NCBI RefSeq assembly: GCF_003545715.1
Contig: NZ_QVNU01000001.1
Span: forward strand, 1,357,962 to 1,421,961
Direction of reading: 5' to 3'
Length of the DNA: 64,000 nucleotides
Source of the DNA: Taibaiella koreensis
Lineage (GTDB): Bacteria; Bacteroidota; Bacteroidia; Chitinophagales; Chitinophagaceae
Below are positions 12,241 to 60,456 of this stretch, piece after piece; position 1 is the stretch's first letter; each line of letters starts with the position of its first letter. The notes under the pieces were generated by a model. That model had not been told where the DNA came from. It searched no databases and was given only the letters and a program-made list of their open reading frames with translations. The translations under genes were made by a program, and so were the position numbers.

Positions 12241-15177
12241 TCAATAACCGAATATTTCCTGGAGATTCAGCTTTTTGAACTCACCCAGCTTCTTCATGTC
12301 TTCTTCCTTCAGCTTGTCCTGAGAGGCTACGATGCAATAAGCAAAGGGCTTATGGCTCATTTCCTGGTCGTGGAAGGTCTTCAGATCTGCAAAGGTAAAC
12401 TTAGGCGTTGCCTCATAAGTGCTCTTACGGATGTCAAAATCGCGTCCCATACGTTGGGAGCTCAGGTAGTAGAACAGGATACCATCTTCGCTGTAACGCT
12501 CGGTAGCCAGCGATTTGCGCAGGCCTTCCTTGGCATTGCTCAGCGCTTTGTCCGATTGTGGCAGCGTTGTGAGCAACTCGTTCATGCCGGCAACAGCTTC
12601 GTTGAACTTATCGGCCTGGGTACCTACGTAAGCCAGCACGCTGTTGCGGTACTCCTTACGGCTAGGCGTTGCAAAGGCGGAATAAGTAGAGTAAGCAAGG
12701 GCTTTGGACTCGCGTATGGTTTGGAACACGATAGAGCCCATACCACCGCCGAAGTACTCATTGAACATAGAGATCACAGGTTGCCTGGCGCTGTTGTACT
12801 GGTCGGCGTTACGCATCCAGAAGACTTCGGCCTGCACCATATCGAAGTGCGCGAAAAGCACTTGCGATTTGTTCTGATCCAGCTGGGGGAATTTCCGCGC
12901 TGCGGGCATGTCCTTAAACGTTGCCGGGGCGGGGTGCACCTTTTGGATGCCGGCAGCCAGCTGTGTAGCGGTCTGCGGGCCATAGTACAGAATACGATGC
13001 TTATAATCGGCAAGATTATGCAGCACGGCTACTAGGTCTTCCGCTTTCAACGCCTCAAGCTCCGCGTCGGTCAGCTCATTGTTGAAGGGGTTCTGCGCGC
13101 CGTACATAGCATAGCTGCGCAGGCCCGCCATGATGGCGCCTTTGTTCTGCTTCTTATTCAGTCTTGCTTTCTTCAACCTGCCTTTGTAGGCATTCAAGGC
13201 ATCAGCATCGGCCTGACAGTTGTGCAGCAGGTCATCCAGCATCGCTACCGCTTTGTCGAAATTGTCCTGGAGACCGTCGAGACTGATGGTGGTGTTTTCA
13301 CCACCAGCGCTTACATTGAAAGAAGACGCCAGCTTATAGAAGTCGGTGCTCACCTGTTCGGCCGATTTGTTTTTTGTACCCAGGTACTTCAGGTAGTCGG
13401 CTGCGATAGGCAGCAATTTGCTCGACCAGCTGCCGGTCTCGAATTGATAATAAAGACGGAACAACGCATTGTCTTTGTTCTGCACAGCCAGTACCTCATA
13501 AGGTCCCGACTTCGCTGTTTGAATGTCCTTCTTGAAATCGACCCAAACCGGATCGATCTTGTTTTCCGGCATCGCATTCACTTTTTTCAGGAAGTCGGAT
13601 TGCGCTTCCCGGTTTACTTCTACCGGCGTGATCGGCGGCTTGTCTACTTTTACGATGTTCTTATCCTCGCCCTGACGCTTGTATACCGCTACGTAGTTGT
13701 TGCCCAGGTATTTGTTGGCAAAAGCAATGATGTCGGCCTTGGTGATCTTGCTCAGGTCATTGACATAATCCACTTTGTCTTTCCAATTGGTCTCATCGGT
13801 AAAATTGCTCATCAGGTTGCTTGCCCTGCTGGAGTAGTTTTCATTTTCTTCGATGATCCTTTTGCGCTCATTATTGATGATGGAGGGGATGAGGTCGTCG
13901 GGGAAATTACCTTTCTTAAGGTTGTCGAGCTCGGCCAGCAGCAGGCTTCTTACTTCATCCAGCGATTGACCCTCTGTGGGGCGGCCTTGCAGCAGCAGCA
14001 CGCTGTAGTCCTTCAATACATAGGGGTAAGCGCTTGCGCTCAGCAGCTTTTGTTTCTGGATCAGGTTCAGATCGATAAGGCCGGCTGCGCCATTGGTCAG
14101 TATATTACCGACCAGCTCTACCATTTGCGCATCTTTGGTAGCTGCGCCCGGAAACCGGAAGCCCAGCATAATGTTTTCGGGGTCGGGGCCCGTTACCTCT
14201 GCCGTAACCGGGGCCGCGATGGGCGCCTCGGGATCAAACTTGTAAACCGGGATCGCTTTGTTCTGCATATAGCCGAAATCTTTGTCGATCTCTGCGATCA
14301 CCTGGTCGGGATTGAAATCGCCCGACATCACGATGCCCATGTTGTTGGGCACATAATAGGTGTTGAAGTATTTACGGATCTCGATCAGCGAAGGATTTTT
14401 CAGGTGCTCTACCGTACCGATGGTAGTTTGCTTGCCATAGTTATTATTGGGGAAAATAGTGGCAAACATTTTCTCAAACACTTTGCGGCCGTCATTGTCT
14501 AGGCCGCGGTTTTTCTCTTCGTACACCGCTTCCAGCTCGGTATGGAAAATACGCAGCACAGGAGCGCGGAAACGCTCCGATTGCACCGCAAGGTATTTAT
14601 TGATGGCATTGCTGGGTACGTCTTCGGTGTAAACGGTCTGCTCAAAAGAGGTGAAGGCATTGGTGCCTTTCGCGCCCATAGCACCCATCATTTTGTCGTA
14701 TTCGTTGGCGATCGCAAATTTGGCGGCCTCACCCGATACACGGTCGATGTCTTTATAGATCGCTTTGCGCTGCGTTTCGTCGGTTGTCTTATTGTACTTT
14801 TCATACAAGGCATCGATCTGGTCGAGCAGGGGCTTTTCCTTGCTCCAGTCGAGCGAGCCATAACGGTCGGTACCTTTAAACAGCAGGTGCTCCAGGTAGT
14901 GGGCCAAACCGGTATTGGTTGCCGGATCGGTTTTGCTACCTGCCTTTACCGCGATATAGGTTTGTACCCTGGGCTCTTTTTTACTCGGGCTCAGGATAAC
15001 GGTAAGTCCATTTTTTAGGGTATAGAACCGGGATTGGGTAGGATCGTTGGTCACGTACTTGTAAGAATAGCCGCCGGAGCTGGCATCCTTCCATTCCGTT
15101 TTTTGCTGTGCAAAAGAACCATGGACCATACCGGCGGCCAGGGCCGCTGTAATGGTGAAGGAGCGTAATAGCTTCAT
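12241..15177 (-). CDS. Secreted M16 (insulinase/pitrilysin-family) zinc metallopeptidase
   Basis: 978 residues: signal peptide (SFTITAALAAGMVHGSFAQ, cleavage about residue 24), then two tandem M16 halves. The catalytic inverted zinc motif HYLEH has His93, Glu96 and His97, with the distal zinc Glu in the ELEAVYEEKNR region around residue 215. The second half lacks the HxxEH motif, as expected for the inactive half of the clamp. Such periplasmic two-half enzymes degrade peptides. It is transcribed alone, ends in a strong terminator, and starts 220 bp from the GG-leader peptide cluster on the opposite strand. A link to peptide maturation is conceivable but unsupported. Confidence 0.93.
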   Translation of the reverse strand: MKLLRSFTITAALAAGMVHGSFAQQKTEWKDASSGGYSYKYVTNDPTQSRFYTLKNGLTVILSPSKKEPRVQTYIAVKAGSKTDPATNTGLAHYLEHLLFKGTDRYGSLDWSKEKPLLDQIDALYEKYNKTTDETQRKAIYKDIDRVSGEAAKFAIANEYDKMMGAMGAKGTNAFTSFEQTVYTEDVPSNAINKYLAVQSERFRAPVLRIFHTELEAVYEEKNRGLDNDGRKVFEKMFATIFPNNNYGKQTTIGTVEHLKNPSLIEIRKYFNTYYVPNNMGIVMSGDFNPDQVIAEIDKDFGYMQNKAIPVYKFDPEAPIAAPVTAEVTGPDPENIMLGFRFPGAATKDAQMVELVGNILTNGAAGLIDLNLIQKQKLLSASAYPYVLKDYSVLLLQGRPTEGQSLDEVRSLLLAELDNLKKGNFPDDLIPSIINNERKRIIEENENYSSRASNLMSNFTDETNWKDKVDYVNDLSKITKADIIAFANKYLGNNYVAVYKRQGEDKNIVKVDKPPITPVEVNREAQSDFLKKVNAMPENKIDPVWVDFKKDIQTAKSGPYEVLAVQNKDNALFRLYYQFETGSWSSKLLPIAADYLKYLGTKNKSAEQVSTDFYKLASSFNVSAGGENTTISLDGLQDNFDKAVAMLDDLLHNCQADADALNAYKGRLKKARLNKKQNKGAIMAGLRSYAMYGAQNPFNNELTDAELEALKAEDLVAVLHNLADYKHRILYYGPQTATQLAAGIQKVHPAPATFKDMPAARKFPQLDQNKSQVLFAHFDMVQAEVFWMRNADQYNSARQPVISMFNEYFGGGMGSIVFQTIRESKALAYSTYSAFATPSRKEYRNSVLAYVGTQADKFNEAVAGMNELLTTLPQSDKALSNAKEGLRKSLATERYSEDGILFYYLSSQRMGRDFDIRKSTYEATPKFTFADLKTFHDQEMSHKPFAYCIVASQDKLKEEDMKKLGEFKKLNLQEIFGY

Positions 15178-15313: not shown

Positions 15314-15373
15314 GTATAAAACACGTATTTTCTTTGGGCTGCAGATTTTATGCATTCTGGGTGCATAATTTTA
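15314..15373 (+). promoter_or_regulatory. Composite promoter of peptide gene 1
   Basis: Contains one copy of the upstream motif (GTATAAAACACGTATTT, 15314-15330), a degenerate 19-bp palindrome (GCTGCA-N7-TGCATT, 15338-15356) and a -7-like box TAATTTTA (15366-15373). The palindrome starts 28 bp before the -7 box, the same as in the promoters at 15.8, 16.9 and 52.7 kb. Confidence 0.65.
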
Positions 15374-15397
15374 TCTTTCACTAAACCACTTATACAA

Positions 15398-15652
15398 ATG
15401 AAAAAGAAAACCCTTCAGCTCGATAAAAAATTGATCCTGCGCAAGGCCGGTGTTGTTGCGCTTAACCCGGAGCAGCTTCCCGATATCCAGGGTGGCGCTA
15501 CCGGCATCCCGTGCAATCAGACCATTCAGTGTCCGGTTACCCAGTTTTGTAATCCATCGGTAGTGCTCTCCTGCAATACACGATGTCCCGGTTGCCGAAG
15601 CTTCGATATCCGGGATTGTATTTCTCATAAGATCACACCGGGATGTCACTAA
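15398..15652 (+). CDS. GG-leader Cys-rich precursor peptide 1 (class I lanthipeptide-type leader)
   Basis: 84 residues from the ATG at 15398. The leader of 33 residues runs from MKKKTLQLDKKLILRK to DIQGG and matches the Bacteroidota leader pattern (basic start, K-L-x-L-x-K, then a double glycine). The predicted core of 51 residues begins ATGIPCNQ and contains eight cysteines. Leader families of this kind are known for ribosomal peptides processed at GG by C39 peptidase-transporters, and NCBI names many of them class I lanthipeptides. No modification or export gene is present in this window, so the mature form is unknown. It is first in a five-gene cluster with its own promoter and terminator. 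Confidence 0.8.
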   Translation: MKKKTLQLDKKLILRKAGVVALNPEQLPDIQGGATGIPCNQTIQCPVTQFCNPSVVLSCNTRCPGCRSFDIRDCISHKITPGCH

Positions 15653-15684
15653 GCCGTTGTTGACAGGATTATAAAATTTGTTGT

Positions 15685-15715
15685 GCCGCACTCTCTTTAG
15701 AGGGCGGCTTTTTTT
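15685..15715 (+). terminator. Terminator after peptide gene 1
   Basis: Stem GCCGC-A-CTCT with AGAG-G-GCGGC (one A-G mismatch) and a 4-nt loop, followed by TTTTTTT. Confidence 0.8.
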
Positions 15716-15741
15716 ACGATCAGCAGCCCGGAAATAGCATA

Positions 15742-15824
15742 GTAGAAAAGACGTATTTTCCTGGTATAAAAGACGTATTTCCGTGCCCACTGCAGGTTTC
15801 GTGCAGTTGAGGGTAATAGTTTTG
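15742..15824 (+). promoter_or_regulatory. Composite promoter of peptide gene 2 with tandem direct repeats
   Basis: Two direct copies of the 17-mer (GTAGAAAAGACGTATTT at 15742-15758 and GTATAAAAGACGTATTT at 15764-15780) start 22 bp apart. A perfect palindrome ACTGCA-N7-TGCAGT (15789-15807) follows, then the -7 box TAGTTTTG (15817-15824). Two-turn spacing of direct repeats is typical of dimeric activators such as LytTR-family regulators; the protein that binds is not known. Confidence 0.75.
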
Positions 15825-15848
15825 CCTTTCATTAAAACCCCAATACGT

Positions 15849-16151
15849 ATGAAAAAGCAAAAGATCGCGCTGGGCAAGCTGGCCCTCAACAAAGAGCGCA
15901 TCACAGACCTGAATGCCGATGAACTGAATAATGTGATCGGTGGATCCAATGCTGCTACCATTTGCCAGGTATCAGTTCAGATCATCTGTCTGCAAACCGT
16001 GGTTTGCGTTACCCGTACCCCGCAATGTGTGATCGTTACCCGCCCGCCCAGGTGTGTTATCGGACCGGTAACCCTTGGCGGATGTCCGATCAATTCTATT
16101 GCCTGTAACCCGACAGAAACTATCGGCGGCCCATCTGAAGTGATCCATTAA
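15849..16151 (+). CDS. GG-leader Cys-rich precursor peptide 2
   Basis: 100 residues from the ATG at 15849. The leader MKKQKIALGKLALNKERI runs to NNVIGG (about 32 residues). The core starts SNAATICQVSVQIIC and has seven cysteines spaced at 5-8 residues among Val, Ile and Thr, with TRTPQC and TRPPRC. It is clearly paralogous to peptide 5: both cores share a C-Q-V-x5-C-x5-C-x6-C pattern. The tail TIGGPSEVIH has a second GG. No modification enzyme is adjacent. A hairpin lies 17 bp downstream, before peptide gene 3. Confidence 0.82.
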   Translation: MKKQKIALGKLALNKERITDLNADELNNVIGGSNAATICQVSVQIICLQTVVCVTRTPQCVIVTRPPRCVIGPVTLGGCPINSIACNPTETIGGPSEVIH

Positions 16152-16168
16152 GACCTGTTTGACCGGGT

Positions 16169-16200
16169 AGGCTGTCTCTACGGAGACAGCCTCTTATCTT
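16169..16200 (+). terminator. Hairpin terminator or attenuator between peptides 2 and 3
   Basis: A perfect 10-bp stem (AGGCTGTCTC at 16169-16178 with GAGACAGCCT at 16183-16192), loop TACG, followed by CTTATCTT. No separate composite promoter is seen for peptide 3, so partial readthrough is likely. Confidence 0.7.
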
Positions 16201-16240
16201 AAAGCCTTGTATCGCTTTTAATCGCAAAACTTTGTTCACA

Positions 16241-16516
16241 ATGAAAAAGCAAAAACTTTCTTTGGGCCGGTTATCCCTGACCAAAGCACATATTGCCAGC
16301 CTGAATGCCGCATCGCAGGATGAAGTGTTCGGTGGCAATGCTTCGTTGGCCGGCTGTCCGGTAATATCCCTGCAGGGCACCTGTGTGACCCGGATATGCG
16401 CCACGCGTATCCAGGCGCTTTGCCCGCCACACACGGGCATTACTGTATATCCCGGCTGTCCGCCGCCCACGACATCGCTCAACAACAATTGCCCTACGCT
16501 GGCTTGTACACTCTGA
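16241..16516 (+). CDS. GG-leader Cys-rich precursor peptide 3
   Basis: 91 residues from the ATG at 16241. The leader MKKQKLSLGRLSLTKAHI continues to DEVFGG (about 35 residues). The core, NASLAGCPVISLQGTC onwards, has eight cysteines, with repeated CPP and CVTR-type pieces and ends NCPTLACTL. It lies in the middle of the cluster, 48 bp downstream of the hairpin that ends the peptide 2 unit. The leader is closest to those of peptides 2 and 5, showing recent duplication. Confidence 0.82.
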   Translation: MKKQKLSLGRLSLTKAHIASLNAASQDEVFGGNASLAGCPVISLQGTCVTRICATRIQALCPPHTGITVYPGCPPPTTSLNNNCPTLACTL

Positions 16517-16560
16517 CCATAAGCCAGACGCGTATTTACTTATCCTTTAAACCCTGTTTT

Positions 16561-16794
16561 ATGAAAAAGACCAAAATCGGATTGGGCAGAAAACTGATCC
16601 TTTCCAAAGAAAACATCAGCAGCCTTGATGGCAATAGCCAGCTGGCGATCAAAGGCGGCGCCTCCGTAAATATTTGCGCCGAAACGGATATTTGTCCCGT
16701 AATCAAAACCAAGATCTGCCCGGTAATTCCTTCGGCAGGTTGCGTTACCCATAAGCATACCTGGTGCTGGGTAGCGGGCGGTTCCTGCCAGTAA
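16561..16794 (+). CDS. GG-leader Cys-rich precursor peptide 4
   Basis: 77 residues from the ATG at 16561. The leader MKKTKIGLGRKLILSKENI continues to LAIKGG (about 33 residues). The core ASVNICAETDICPVIKTKIC onwards has six cysteines, includes a CPVI repeat, and is the only one in the cluster with His and Trp near its end (THKHTWCWVAGG). It starts 44 bp after peptide 3 with no terminator between, so the two are probably cotranscribed. Confidence 0.8.
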   Translation: MKKTKIGLGRKLILSKENISSLDGNSQLAIKGGASVNICAETDICPVIKTKICPVIPSAGCVTHKHTWCWVAGGSCQ

Positions 16795-16824
16795 GCAGCG
16801 GTGCAAAGCGTAGTGGGCTGCTGC

Positions 16825-16845
16825 AAGGCCATACTGGTCTTTTTA
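16825..16845 (+). terminator. Weak terminator after peptide gene 4
   Basis: Stem AAGGCCA/TGGTCTT with one G-T pair and a TAC loop, running into TTTTA. Confidence 0.55.
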
Positions 16846-16882
16846 TCTCCTGTAACTGGTTAGCTGTACACAAAGCGCTTTA

Positions 16883-16965
16883 GTATAAAAGACGTATTTC
16901 ACTCGTATAAAAGACGTATTTATGCCGGTACTGCGCAGTTTGTGCAGTGGTCGCAGGTAGCTTTG
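16883..16965 (+). promoter_or_regulatory. Composite promoter of peptide gene 5 with tandem direct repeats
   Basis: Two identical copies of GTATAAAAGACGTATTT (16883-16899 and 16905-16921) start 22 bp apart. The near-palindrome ACTGCG-N7-TGCAGT (16930-16948) and the -7 box TAGCTTTG (16958-16965) follow. All spacings equal those of the peptide 2 promoter: 25 bp from second repeat to palindrome and 28 bp from palindrome to -7 box. Confidence 0.78.
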
Positions 16966-16988
16966 CTGTACACTAAACCCCTTTTTTT

Positions 16989-17279
16989 ATGAAAAAACAA
17001 AAGCTTACGCTGGGCAGGCTGTCTCTCAACAAAGAGCGCATCTCCGGCCTGGATGCCGGCCAGGTTACGGGCGGGGCGCCCTTATCGGTGAACATTCCCT
17101 GCCAGGTAACATTGCTGGTCAATTGCCAGCAAACAATACTTTGTCCTACGCGGCAGGTGCTCTGTCGTACTACCCGGATCCCCATCTGTGCCGATCCGCT
17201 TACGGTAGGAGCGGCCTGTCCACCGGTATCGCTCGCTTGCAATCCGCAAACCCTGGCCTGTGGCCCGGGTGGTTTCTGA
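16989..17279 (+). CDS. GG-leader Cys-rich precursor peptide 5
   Basis: 96 residues from the ATG at 16989. The leader MKKQKLTLGRLSLNKERI ends at GQVTGG, giving a 29-residue leader, the shortest of the five. The core APLSVNIPCQVTLLVNC onwards has nine cysteines and ends LACGPGGF. It has the same C-Q-V-x5-C-x5-C-x6-C spacing as peptide 2 and so is its paralogue. A strong terminator follows 17 bp after the stop. It has its own promoter with the full motif set. Confidence 0.82.
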   Translation: MKKQKLTLGRLSLNKERISGLDAGQVTGGAPLSVNIPCQVTLLVNCQQTILCPTRQVLCRTTRIPICADPLTVGAACPPVSLACNPQTLACGPGGF

Positions 17280-17296
17280 TCCTGAGTTTATCCAGG

Positions 17297-17326
17297 AAGG
17301 CCGTCCCGCAATGGACGGCCTTTTTT
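17297..17326 (+). terminator. Rho-independent terminator after peptide gene 5
   Basis: A perfect 10-bp stem (AAGGCCGTCC at 17297-17306 with GGACGGCCTT at 17313-17322), loop CGCAAT, then a T6 run. Confidence 0.92.
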
Positions 17327-17793: not shown

Positions 17794-19164
17794 ATGCAAG
17801 TCTGGAAAGATTATCTTGAAACCAACAAAGACCGTTTCCTGGATGAATTGCTGGAACTGTTGCGGATACCTTCCGTAAGTGCCGACAGCAAATATAAAGA
17901 AGATGTGGCGCGTTGCGCAGAAGCTGTAAAACAGCATATGCTGGCCGCCGGATGCGATAATGCGGAAGTTTGCCCCACAGCCGGGCATCCGATCGTCTAT
18001 GGTGAAAAAATAATTGATCCCAAGCTGCCTACCGTCCTGGTATACGGCCATTACGATGTACAGCCCGCCGATCCGCTGGAGCTTTGGCACAGCGGCCCTT
18101 TCGAGCCGGTAATTAAAGATGGCAGAATCTATGCCCGCGGCGCCTGCGACGACAAAGGACAAATGTTCATGCACATCAAAGCATTTGAAGTGATGAACAA
18201 AACCAATACCCTGGCTTGCAATGTGAAGATGATGATTGAAGGTGAGGAAGAAGTGGGTTCCGACAACCTGGGCAAATTCCTTGAAGCCAATGTGGAAAAG
18301 CTTAAAGCCGATATCGTCCTCATTTCCGATACTTCTATGATCAGCATGGAAAATCCTTCCATCGAAAGCGGTCTGCGTGGTCTGGCATATATGGAAGTGG
18401 AAGTAACAGGTCCCAACCGTGATCTGCATAGCGGTGTATATGGCGGCGCTGTGGCCAATCCCATCAACCAGCTTTGCAAAATGATTGCTTCGCTGCATGA
18501 CGAAAATAACCACATTACCATTCCCGGCTTCTACGATAAGGTGCTCGATCTGAAAGCCGAAGAGCGCGATGACCTCAATAAAGCGCCCTTCGACCTGGAA
18601 GAGTATAAGAAGGAGTTGGCGGTAAAAGAAGTATGGGGTGAGCTGGGCTATACCACCCTGGAACGTACCGGCACCCGTCCTACACTTGACGTAAATGGTA
18701 TCTGGGGCGGCTATACCGGCGAAGGCGCTAAGACCGTATTGCCTTCCAAGGCTTATGCCAAAATATCCATGCGCCTGGTGCCCAACCAGATCAGCAAGGA
18801 AATATCCAACCTGTTCACCAACCATTTTGAGAAGATCGCTCCTCCCGGTGTTACCGTTAAGGTAACCCCGCACCATGGCGGCGAGCCTGTGGTAACGCCT
18901 ACAGATTCACCCGCTTACCAGGCGGCTGCCAGGGCTATCCAGGCTACCTTTGGAAAAGATCCCATTCCTACAAGAGGCGGGGGTAGTATTCCCATCGTGG
19001 CTTTATTTGAAAGCGTGCTGGGACTCAAGACCGTACTGCTGGGCTTCGGACTGGACAACGACAATATCCATTCGCCCAATGAAAAGTACGATGTGTTCAA
19101 CTATTACAAAGGCATCGAGACCATACCGTTCTTCCACAAGTATTTTGCGGAGAGCAAAGGATAA
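17794..19164 (+). CDS. M20-family dipeptidase/aminoacylase metallopeptidase
   Basis: 456 residues, cytoplasmic. The zinc-binding motifs are visible in order: YGHYDVQPADP (His and Asp, about residues 86-96), ARGACDDKGQ (bridging Asp, about 117-126), and MIEGEEEVGS with the general-base Glu pair (about 147-156). RGGGSIPI and DNDNIHSPNEKY near the C-terminus carry the last metal and substrate ligands. A lid/dimerisation domain lies between. Family members hydrolyse dipeptides or N-acyl amino acids. It is a single gene with its own -7 box and a strong terminator. Confidence 0.95.
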   Translation: MQVWKDYLETNKDRFLDELLELLRIPSVSADSKYKEDVARCAEAVKQHMLAAGCDNAEVCPTAGHPIVYGEKIIDPKLPTVLVYGHYDVQPADPLELWHSGPFEPVIKDGRIYARGACDDKGQMFMHIKAFEVMNKTNTLACNVKMMIEGEEEVGSDNLGKFLEANVEKLKADIVLISDTSMISMENPSIESGLRGLAYMEVEVTGPNRDLHSGVYGGAVANPINQLCKMIASLHDENNHITIPGFYDKVLDLKAEERDDLNKAPFDLEEYKKELAVKEVWGELGYTTLERTGTRPTLDVNGIWGGYTGEGAKTVLPSKAYAKISMRLVPNQISKEISNLFTNHFEKIAPPGVTVKVTPHHGGEPVVTPTDSPAYQAAARAIQATFGKDPIPTRGGGSIPIVALFESVLGLKTVLLGFGLDNDNIHSPNEKYDVFNYYKGIETIPFFHKYFAESKG

Positions 19165-52806: not shown

Positions 52807-53094
52807 ATGAAAAAAACACAGCTGAATTTCAGTCCCAAGTTAAAACTCAATAAAGAGACCATTGGTATGCTGAGCGCACAGCAGGCACAATTTATCGGCG
52901 GAGCGCCCAACACAGTAGGATGCCCGCCTGCGTCTGTCAACTGTCCGCCGGTTACGATTAACTGTCCCATCCTGACCAACGGTTGTCAGACAGTTTCCAT
53001 TTGTAACGACCAATGTGCCGTAACCTGGGGCTGCCCGCCGAACACCATCAACTGTCCCCCTGTAAGCAATTCCTGCAATTGTCCTACTGGCTAA
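52807..53094 (+). CDS. GG-leader Cys-rich precursor peptide 6
   Basis: 95 residues from the ATG at 52807. The leader MKKTQLNFSPKLKLNKETIG runs to QFIGG (about 32 residues) and has the LKLNKETI form typical of Bacteroidota class I lanthipeptide leaders. The core begins APNTVGCPPASVNC and is repetitive: CPP-x4-NCPPV units occur twice, separated by CQTVSICNDQC. It has about twelve cysteines. It is cotranscribed with peptide 7, 32 bp downstream. Confidence 0.85.
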   Translation: MKKTQLNFSPKLKLNKETIGMLSAQQAQFIGGAPNTVGCPPASVNCPPVTINCPILTNGCQTVSICNDQCAVTWGCPPNTINCPPVSNSCNCPTG

Positions 53095-53126: not shown

Positions 53127-53366
53127 ATGAAAAAAAAGAAGCTGAGCCTACATGCTAAGCTGATACTCCGTAAAGAGCCTGTAACGCCGCTAAGCAGACC
53201 GCAACAGGAGCAACTGGCCGGTGGCCAGGCCACCGAGAGTTGCCAGTGTCCCACACCGCCCGTTACCGTGGCTTATAATTGCCCTGTATCGCATCAGGCG
53301 CAGAAGAGCTGTTTCGATTGCATCCGTTCGATCCTTAATGAGAAAACGGAAAACCTCTGTTACTGA
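53127..53366 (+). CDS. GG-leader Cys-rich precursor peptide 7
   Basis: 79 residues from the ATG at 53127. The leader MKKKKLSLHAKLILRKEPV runs to QLAGG (about 32 residues). The core QATESCQCPTPPVTVAYNC continues to KSCFDCIRSILNEKTENLCY, with six cysteines. It follows peptide 6 after 32 bp in the same transcription unit and ends in a strong terminator. No maturation gene is adjacent. Confidence 0.82.
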   Translation: MKKKKLSLHAKLILRKEPVTPLSRPQQEQLAGGQATESCQCPTPPVTVAYNCPVSHQAQKSCFDCIRSILNEKTENLCY

Positions 53367-58683: not shown

Positions 58684-58839
58684 TTAGCAAAGGGGTACTT
58701 TGCTGCAGAAGCTGCTTTGCTGGTTACAGGAAACGGCATCGCTACCGCCTTTAACCTGTTCTTGTGTTGGCTTCTCCAGCCGGCTGACAATAGAGATCTT
58801 CTTCAGCTGGATTTTCTTTTGCGTGTTTTGTTTTTTCAT
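58684..58839 (-). CDS. Small GG-leader Cys-containing precursor peptide 8
   Basis: 51 residues. The sequence starts MKKQNTQKKIQLKKISIV and reaches the double glycine at positions 31-32 (EQVKGG), leaving a 19-residue core SDAVSCNQQSSFCSKVPLC with three cysteines and several serines. It was found by translating the minus strand upstream of the kinase gene and is too short for many gene finders. It has its own -7 box (58862-58869) 23 bp upstream. The compact Ser/Cys-rich core fits a lanthipeptide or signalling peptide better than the long cores of the other loci. Confidence 0.78.
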   Translation of the reverse strand: MKKQNTQKKIQLKKISIVSRLEKPTQEQVKGGSDAVSCNQQSSFCSKVPLC

Positions 58840-59087: not shown

Positions 59088-59324
59088 ATGAAAAAGAGAA
59101 ATCTGAATCTGGAAAAAAAGACATTGTCCTTTGATAAGCAGGTGATTGTTCTCCTGAATACGGAACAGCAATACCAGGCACTCGGCGGTGGTACCTTCCA
59201 GGATACCAATTGTCAGCAGTGCGTTTTCTCTATCCAGTTAAGCAATTGCCCGCCATGTCAGGGCTCCAATCCACGGCAGTCACATTGTCCTATCTCGGTT
59301 GATCCTTGCGGTATTTGCCTCTGA
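59088..59324 (+). CDS. GG-leader Cys-rich precursor peptide 9
   Basis: 78 residues from the ATG at 59088. The leader MKKRNLNLEKKTLSFDKQV runs to YQALGG (about 36 residues). The core GTFQDTNCQQCVFSIQL continues to VDPCGICL, with eight cysteines, several as CxxC pairs (NCQQC, NCPPC, CGIC). It is divergent from peptide 8, 249 bp apart with AT-rich DNA between. A half-site ACTGCA occurs at 59038-59043 but without a matching partner or -7 spacing, so its promoter differs from those of peptides 1, 2, 5 and 6. Confidence 0.8.
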   Translation: MKKRNLNLEKKTLSFDKQVIVLLNTEQQYQALGGGTFQDTNCQQCVFSIQLSNCPPCQGSNPRQSHCPISVDPCGICL

Positions 59325-60347: not shown

Positions 60348-60371
60348 AAAAATCTCAGGAAATATCCTGTG

Positions 60372-60456
60372 TGCGGCAGAGGAGATTCGAACTCCCACGC
60401 CCATGACAGGCGCTACCACCTCAAAGTAGTGCGTCTACCAGTTTCGCCACCGCCGC
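60372..60456 (-). tRNA. tRNA-Leu (anticodon GAG)
   Basis: An 85-nt tRNA on the minus strand. The acceptor stem GCGGCGG pairs with CTGCCGC (one G-T), the discriminator is A, the D-loop has TGGTAGACGC, the anticodon stem-loop is CTACT-TTGAGGT-GGTAG with anticodon GAG (codons CUC/CUU), a long class II variable arm is present, and the T arm has GGGAGTTCGAATCTCC. CCA is not encoded. The rest of 60100-60640 holds no other gene. Confidence 0.97.

Follow-up and report, generated by a model that had tools for sequence, protein, structure and literature searches.

Class I lanthipeptides of Bacteroidota such as the PedA15 lanthipeptides of Pedobacter lusitanus and the pinensins are known from clustered loci, and clustering of the precursor gene with those for the dehydratase LanB and the cyclase LanC is usual in this class but no part of its chemistry. 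According to the available parts of one survey, a number of Bacteroidetes class I precursors (LanAs) carry the leader motif LxLxKx5L, many of them ending in Gly-Gly, and a C39-family protease is often found in the clusters; the precursors were collected no more than seven genes away from a gene with a LanC domain (Walker et al., 2020; PMC7268733). The C39-type protease LahT150 has been used on P. lusitanus PedA15.2, as the accessible portion of a review reports (PMC12328550). In marine picocyanobacteria, one promiscuous LanM (ProcM or SyncM) serves tens of precursors with double-glycine (GG) leaders and diverse cores, the prochlorosins and synechococsins, whose genes stand singly or in tandem across the genome with highest counts of 83 and 79 in the survey text available (PMC10783134). 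Here, we analyze five consecutive small genes (P1-P5) in a 64,000-nucleotide stretch of the Taibaiella koreensis genome (assembly GCF_003545715.1, contig NZ_QVNU01000001.1, positions 1,357,962 to 1,421,961), hereafter the window. The five genes probably encode class I lanthipeptide precursors that belong to a genome-wide set of about 120 members and are modified in trans by dispersed enzymes. Their leader family is ordinary while their organization is unusual.

Five precursor genes and a genome-wide set

All five genes lie on the forward strand. Leaders were scored with the NCBIfam model NF038153 (lant_leader_L1a), which has a curated cut-off of 22 bits, and orthologues were sought in Taibaiella helva; identities refer to whole peptides and dN/dS denotes the ratio of nonsynonymous to synonymous substitution rates.

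15398-15652 (+): P1 precursor of 84 aa, leader ending in GG (residues 32-33); 51-residue core (8 Cys, 9 Ser/Thr); 36.1 bits; 56% identical to its T. helva orthologue, which occupies the corresponding locus
15849-16151 (+): P2 precursor of 100 aa; 68-residue core (7 Cys, 12 Ser/Thr); 42.9 bits; T. helva orthologue, 78%; core dN/dS 0.11
16241-16516 (+): P3 precursor of 91 aa; 59-residue core (7 Cys, 12 Ser/Thr); 28.7 bits; no counterpart at the T. helva locus
16561-16794 (+): P4 precursor of 77 aa; 44-residue core (6 Cys, 7 Ser/Thr); 25.2 bits; T. helva orthologue, 82%; core dN/dS 0.05
16989-17279 (+): P5 precursor of 96 aa, paralogue of P2; 67-residue core (8 Cys, 9 Ser/Thr); 27.0 bits; no counterpart at the T. 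helva locus

The five peptides share one leader type followed by a double glycine, and every leader exceeds the class I cut-off and contains the LxLxKx5L motif. An earlier note made from the sequence alone had proposed five consecutive genes with a common leader of the Bacteroidota class I lanthipeptide/GG family, and both points are borne out. The cores are Cys-rich as it described, with 44-68 residues, 6-8 Cys and 7-12 Ser/Thr, although its upper figure of nine cysteines is one too high. In all five cores Ser/Thr are at least as numerous as Cys. The paralogy it had suggested for P2 and P5 is confirmed by 48% identity (E = 3.9e-15), and the Cys spacing it quoted is present in both. A Pfam scan of P1-P5 returned no family above cut-off.

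The leader family extends across the genome (5.94 Mb in 24 contigs). Counting NF038153 matches at E ≤ 1, we identified 124 candidate precursors, 93 of them above the curated cut-off (90 by a single match alone), so the search for further precursors that the note had recommended was productive. A relaxed LxLxKx5L motif is present in 122 matches and the strict form in 103. All but one of the 124 are followed by a core (median 6 Cys and 9 Ser/Thr), and Ser/Thr equal or outnumber Cys in 119/123 cores. The precursors are spread over 84 places when genes no more than 5 kb apart are grouped, and 114/124 have no LanB or LanC match within 10 kb. Few false leader matches are expected since the 31 candidates of the Taibaiella genome G101 yield no match at E ≤ 1 and none of 14 control genomes contains one above cut-off, three of them having a match at E ≤ 1. 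BLAST grouping of cores without composition correction places 32/124 in one group that includes P1, P2, P4 and P5 while P3 stands alone; because Cys-rich composition renders such links unsafe, no core family tree was drawn.

In working mode, the prochlorosins are the closest described system, and scattered precursors with GG leaders are common to both. The two differ in their enzymes and leaders, prochlorosins relying on a class II LanM and a Nif11 leader and the Taibaiella set, as we propose, on a class I LanB, a separate LanC and the LxLxKx5L leader; P1-P5 fit the class I leader model, and their matches include no Nif11 family. As far as the survey text goes, prochlorosins likewise break the rule of one cluster for precursor and enzyme, and their maximum counts of 83 and 79 compare with 124 here, or 93 above the curated cut-off. 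Prochlorosin cores are described there as non-conserved between precursors and Taibaiella cores are more constrained than leaders between orthologues, two statements that rest on different measures. The Bacteroidetes LanAs share leader motif and GG site with the Taibaiella set, but most Taibaiella precursors lie far from LanB and LanC; since that survey, in the text available, took only LanC neighborhoods, scattered genes of the P1-P5 type would have been missed. The PedA15 lanthipeptides and pinensins are class I products of Bacteroidota, as we propose for the Taibaiella set, and differ from it in their clustered loci.

If this assignment holds, one genome exceeds the two richest prochlorosin producers of the survey, within its available text, in lanthipeptide precursors, and does so with a class I system in which dehydratase and cyclase are separate, separately encoded proteins. 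It would offer a natural test of few enzymes against very many substrates and a source of LanB and LanC enzymes with broad tolerance. Mining by enzyme neighborhood would overlook most of these precursors. We found no paper linking Taibaiella with lanthipeptides in a search that did not cover subscription papers, so that absence from print is unproven, and a scattered lanthipeptide system is not described in those portions of the literature on Taibaiella biosynthetic gene clusters that we examined. One survey ranks Taibaiella second in its phylum by number of biosynthetic clusters (PMC9248904), a rank on which the scattered precursor set may bear; the word lanthipeptide does not occur in the accessible text of that survey.

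Dispersed enzymes and one exporter

Profile searches for LanB (PF04738), LanC (PF05147) and C39 peptidases (PF03412) gave no match inside the window, in agreement with the earlier note, which had also named radical SAM enzymes as absent, a family for which no search was made. Its description of the cluster as orphan is thus true of the window and does not extend to the genome, where the whole-genome search it had advised yielded two LanB, four LanC and one C39 peptidase-ABC exporter. LanB1 (contig C16, 1074 aa) matches almost the entire N-domain profile and LanB2 (contig C20, 922 aa) matches it in two pieces; the C-domain is present in both. Both LanB match two solved structures, 9g04 and 5ehk, and LanB2 in addition matches NisB (4wd9, 6m7y). 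LanB1 has one precursor, an HlyD protein and the exporter (731 aa) as neighbors. Around LanB2 there is no precursor within 20 kb; a LytTR regulator lies beside it, together with a histidine kinase.

The four LanC genes occupy separate loci on contigs C18, C10, C19 and C2, none of which carries a LanB, and a precursor leader match is found 196-1586 bp from each. All four LanC contain WCYG, CHG and LAHG, and the N-terminal part of the exporter contains DCGPTC, motifs that we take to be catalytic or metal-site residues. At 407-448 aa, the open frames that hold the LanC-like matches are not long enough for a LanM, although no LanM-specific model was used. P1-P5 do not form a single cluster with a LanB and a LanC, the nearest LanC on their contig being about 0.75 Mb away. 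Among the open reading frames of at least 100 aa flanking the LanC genes, 17/46 were scanned against Pfam for a complete cluster, with no LanB and no ABC exporter found. A further C39 match (C10:1226182) was set aside as an exporter; it is 161 aa long, has a lipoprotein-like start and lies beside a SecDF-like protein. LytTR response regulators occur near the C18 LanC (L073, 10653-11363) as well as beside LanB2 (L057, 13448-15318), and LytTR control may be tied to the lanthipeptide system.

In the route that we propose, precursors would be transcribed from their own sites, P2 and P5 under a tandem LytTR-like box. The LxLxKx5L leader would recruit a distant LanB, most likely LanB1, for dehydration of core Ser/Thr, after which one of the four LanC would add Cys thiols to form lanthionine or methyllanthionine rings. 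The C39 peptidase-ABC exporter beside LanB1, together with HlyD, would then cut after Gly-Gly and export the product. On the sequence evidence, class I modification of the precursors is well supported. Their service in trans by few enzymes is likely. The set counts 124 matches at 84 places, versus two LanB, four LanC and one exporter. We put at about even the chance that the set represents a modular class I counterpart of the prochlorosins, in which some 120 precursors share one or two LanB and the exporter, choose among the LanC enzymes and constitute a kept library with maintained roles. Because the cores are under strong selection (see below), individual peptides may each have a maintained role of their own rather than form a fast-changing library, and we lean towards fixed roles as signals or antimicrobials.

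Selection, relatives and competing explanations

Core Cys and Ser/Thr are selectively maintained between orthologous precursors. Peptides were extracted for 63/71 T. helva and 51/79 Taibaiella chishuiensis matches, and the selection result rests on T. helva as the one usable close relative, with 41 of 50 reciprocal best pairs used (at least 80 bits). Across these 41 pairs, core Cys are kept in 250/250 positions and core Ser/Thr remain Ser or Thr in 335/351 (95.4%), while other core residues are identical in 906/1205 (75.2%). The corresponding leaders retain 103/143 Ser/Thr (72%), a lower share than for their other residues (845/1091, 77.5%). Ordinary orthologues behave like the leaders: 59 pairs of 75-88% identity keep 2206/2739 Ser/Thr (80.5%) and 15721/18761 other residues (83.8%), and all 177 ordinary pairs keep 81.0% and 84.3%, respectively. 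Taken pair by pair, Ser/Thr are kept in excess of other residues in 39 of the 40 precursor pairs that entered the test versus 20 of 85 controls (Mann-Whitney p = 7e-18), the latter being those of the 177 with 65-90% identity and enough residues. Ser-Thr exchanges make up 21 of 37 core Ser/Thr changes, and counting them as kept widens the gap, controls being counted alike. Since neither leaders nor ordinary proteins show it, the constraint is confined to residues after Gly-Gly. Nine of 21 reciprocal pairs with T. chishuiensis (at least 50 bits) agree in direction, with 52/72 Ser/Thr (72%) and 113/236 other residues (48%) kept. Such a comparison of core and leader constitutes a simple lanthionine test that needs only sequences and is applicable to other orphan Cys-rich GG peptides.

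Precursors, LanB and LanC co-occur in relatives. The four Taibaiella genomes contain 124 (T. koreensis), 71 (T. helva), 79 (T. chishuiensis) and 0 (G101) precursor matches at E ≤ 1 and 4, 4, 6 and 0 LanC; LanB number two in T. koreensis, two in T. helva and none in G101, and T. chishuiensis, which lay outside that search, has at least one. With four genomes from a single genus, this pattern is no more than suggestive. Among 147 genomes of the family, a leader match at E ≤ 0.01 is found in 11/20 with LanB versus 3/127 without (Fisher p = 4e-9), and with the genus removed in 9/18 and 3/126; two of the three LanB-less genomes have weak partial matches in long frames. Outside the genus, the family sample has 1-7 leader matches in 12 genomes and none in the others. 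At the level of the phylum, 9 of 395 genomes, the source genome included, match the leader at E ≤ 0.001, and G347 contains the only other large set among those scored. At most 49 (family) and 19 (phylum) candidates were scored in genomes with many, so large sets of weak matches may be undercounted. In G347, at least 19 precursors with the NF038153 leader stand in a tandem array of 3.3 kb (G347:C1:2257066-2260358); it shares the leader model with Taibaiella, but all 19 scored matches lie in this one array rather than scattered, with 36 further candidates unscored.

The locus itself can be followed through the genus by its two neighbors, which we take to be peptidase genes:

12241-15177 (-): M16-type peptidase gene
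17794-19164 (+): M20-type peptidase gene

In T. helva these two genes flank orthologues of P1, P2 and P4 only, so the conservation in related genomes on which the earlier note had staked its proposal is found for three of the five. Both neighbors are present in T. chishuiensis with no such peptide between them, and in G101 no such peptide lies beside the M16 gene. LanB1 (88% identity), the exporter (96%) and HlyD (88%) stand side by side in the same order in T. helva, which also has counterparts of the C19 LanC (92%) and the C18 LanC (77%). In T. chishuiensis, LanC genes flank the LanB1 orthologue on both sides (C1:998636-1009787; L161, L234, L240), and it may therefore be a derived trait that the other two species encode LanC apart from LanB1. 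The second LanB of T. helva adjoins a LanC and a precursor in a compact cluster (C33:52001-72000; L180) and is only 26% identical to LanB2.

Ser and Thr that are dehydrated and bridged are expected to be fixed and interchangeable, while in a disulfide-bonded peptide they should drift. The near-fixed core Ser/Thr are what dehydration and bridging to Cys would produce and speak against disulfides. Secreted disulfide-bonded peptides, their GG leader serving C39 export only and their Ser/Thr unmodified, would suit Cys-rich cores with much Val, Ile, Thr and Pro and the lack of LanB and LanC next to the five genes, and the earlier note had considered such an oxidized scaffold. We find it very unlikely: besides the contrast between core and leader Ser/Thr, odd Cys numbers in 65/123 cores, as in 33/63 and 24/50 cores of the two relatives with precursors, are evidence against fully paired disulfides, the leaders match a class I lanthipeptide model, and G101 lacks precursors, LanB and LanC together. 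Unlikely, too, is a different ribosomally synthesized and post-translationally modified peptide (RiPP), formed by LanB dehydration with no or partial cyclization or by another enzyme such as a radical SAM or YcaO protein. LanB1 without an adjoining LanC would fit this, as would a P2 match to TIGR04149, a leader family of radical SAM-modified RiPPs, that is weak and below cut-off (20.0 bits versus 25), and genes for radical SAM and YcaO enzymes were not searched; yet the genome encodes four LanC with their motifs, each near a precursor, and no core Cys is lost in the T. helva pairs. That most of the 124 are unexpressed remnants of a decaying or selfish family spread by duplication is hardly credible in view of the core dN/dS of 0.076, the intact Cys and the presence of a core in 123/124, even though C16:155127 is truncated (26 aa), C18:617947 has no ATG in the frame read (1/124 each), P3 and P5 lack T. 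helva counterparts and gene content differs among species.

Several observations weigh against class I modification in trans as the explanation of the five genes. Their cores are long for lanthipeptides, LanB and LanC are missing from the window, the T. helva locus contains no counterpart of P3 or P5, and LanB1 lacks an adjoining LanC both here and in T. helva. The dN/dS values over the 41 pairs (cores 0.076, leaders 0.131) are rough, core dS being about 1.6. By identity only, core Thr (90%) and Ser (88%) hardly stand out from Tyr (88%), Pro (87%) and Gly (86%) and are surpassed by Trp (16/17), and the controls, leaders of the same peptides and ordinary proteins, include no unmodified Cys-rich secreted peptides. 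In the T. chishuiensis pairs 39/45 core Cys are kept and six lost. Finally, G140, a genome in many contigs, has three leader matches above cut-off and no LanB match, and nine LanB-bearing genomes of the family have no leader match, so LanB alone is no predictor of an NF038153 leader.

Putative promoter boxes and other features of the window

The upstream regions of P1, P2 and P5 contain promoter-like elements, and possible terminators follow P2 and P5.

15322-15330 (+): single box copy CACGTATTT upstream of P1, read from the sequence; also before the T. helva P1 orthologue
15750-15780 (+): direct repeat of GACGTATTT in tandem with a 22-bp period, upstream of P2; exact genome match
15789-15807: imperfect 19-bp dyad ACTGC...GCAGT, between tandem box and -7 element of P2
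15817-15824 (+): TAGTTTTG before P2, downstream of the tandem box, read from the sequence
16169-16192 (+): hairpin after P2, 10-pair stem; possible terminator
16891-16921 (+): the same tandem direct repeat upstream of P5; exact genome match
16930-16948: imperfect 19-bp dyad ACTGC...GCAGT, between tandem box and -7 element of P5
16958-16965 (+): TAGCTTTG before P5, downstream of the tandem box, read from the sequence
17297-17326 (+): GC-rich hairpin with T-run after P5, read from the sequence and absent from the hairpin scan; possible terminator

The exact arrangement ACGTATTT-N14-ACGTATTT occurs at only two sites in the genome, before P2 and before P5, and represents a putative LytTR-type activator site. 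Upstream of T. helva P2, the repeat spacing is retained and both copies read GACGTAATT. We take TAGTTTTG and TAGCTTTG to fit the Bacteroidota -7 element TAnnTTTG, and the dyads possibly represent the site of a second regulator. With 48% identity and the same tandem box, P5 looks like a duplicate of P2 including its promoter region. The hairpins after P2 and P5 make several transcription units likely. As a mark of all precursors the ACGTATTT box was rejected, since the box, exact or slightly altered, is present in the 250 bp upstream of only 3/124. At up to three mismatches the box pattern gives 41 sites compared with 91 for the reversed control, so only exact sites are informative. Word enrichment upstream of all precursors yields mainly weak A-rich words, at most about sixfold enriched.

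Nine of the 124 matches lie inside the window, P1-P5 and four more:

52807-53094 (+): further precursor, 95 aa, 10 Cys; 30.6 bits; T. helva orthologue, 82%
53127-53366 (+): further precursor, 79 aa, 6 Cys; 41.3 bits; T. helva orthologue, 71%
58684-58839 (-): weak possible precursor, 51 aa, 3 Cys; 16.3 bits, below cut-off
59088-59324 (+): further precursor, 78 aa, 7 Cys; 26.9 bits; T. helva orthologue, 73%

A single tRNA gene was detected in the window, tRNA-Leu (gag) at 60371-60456 (-).

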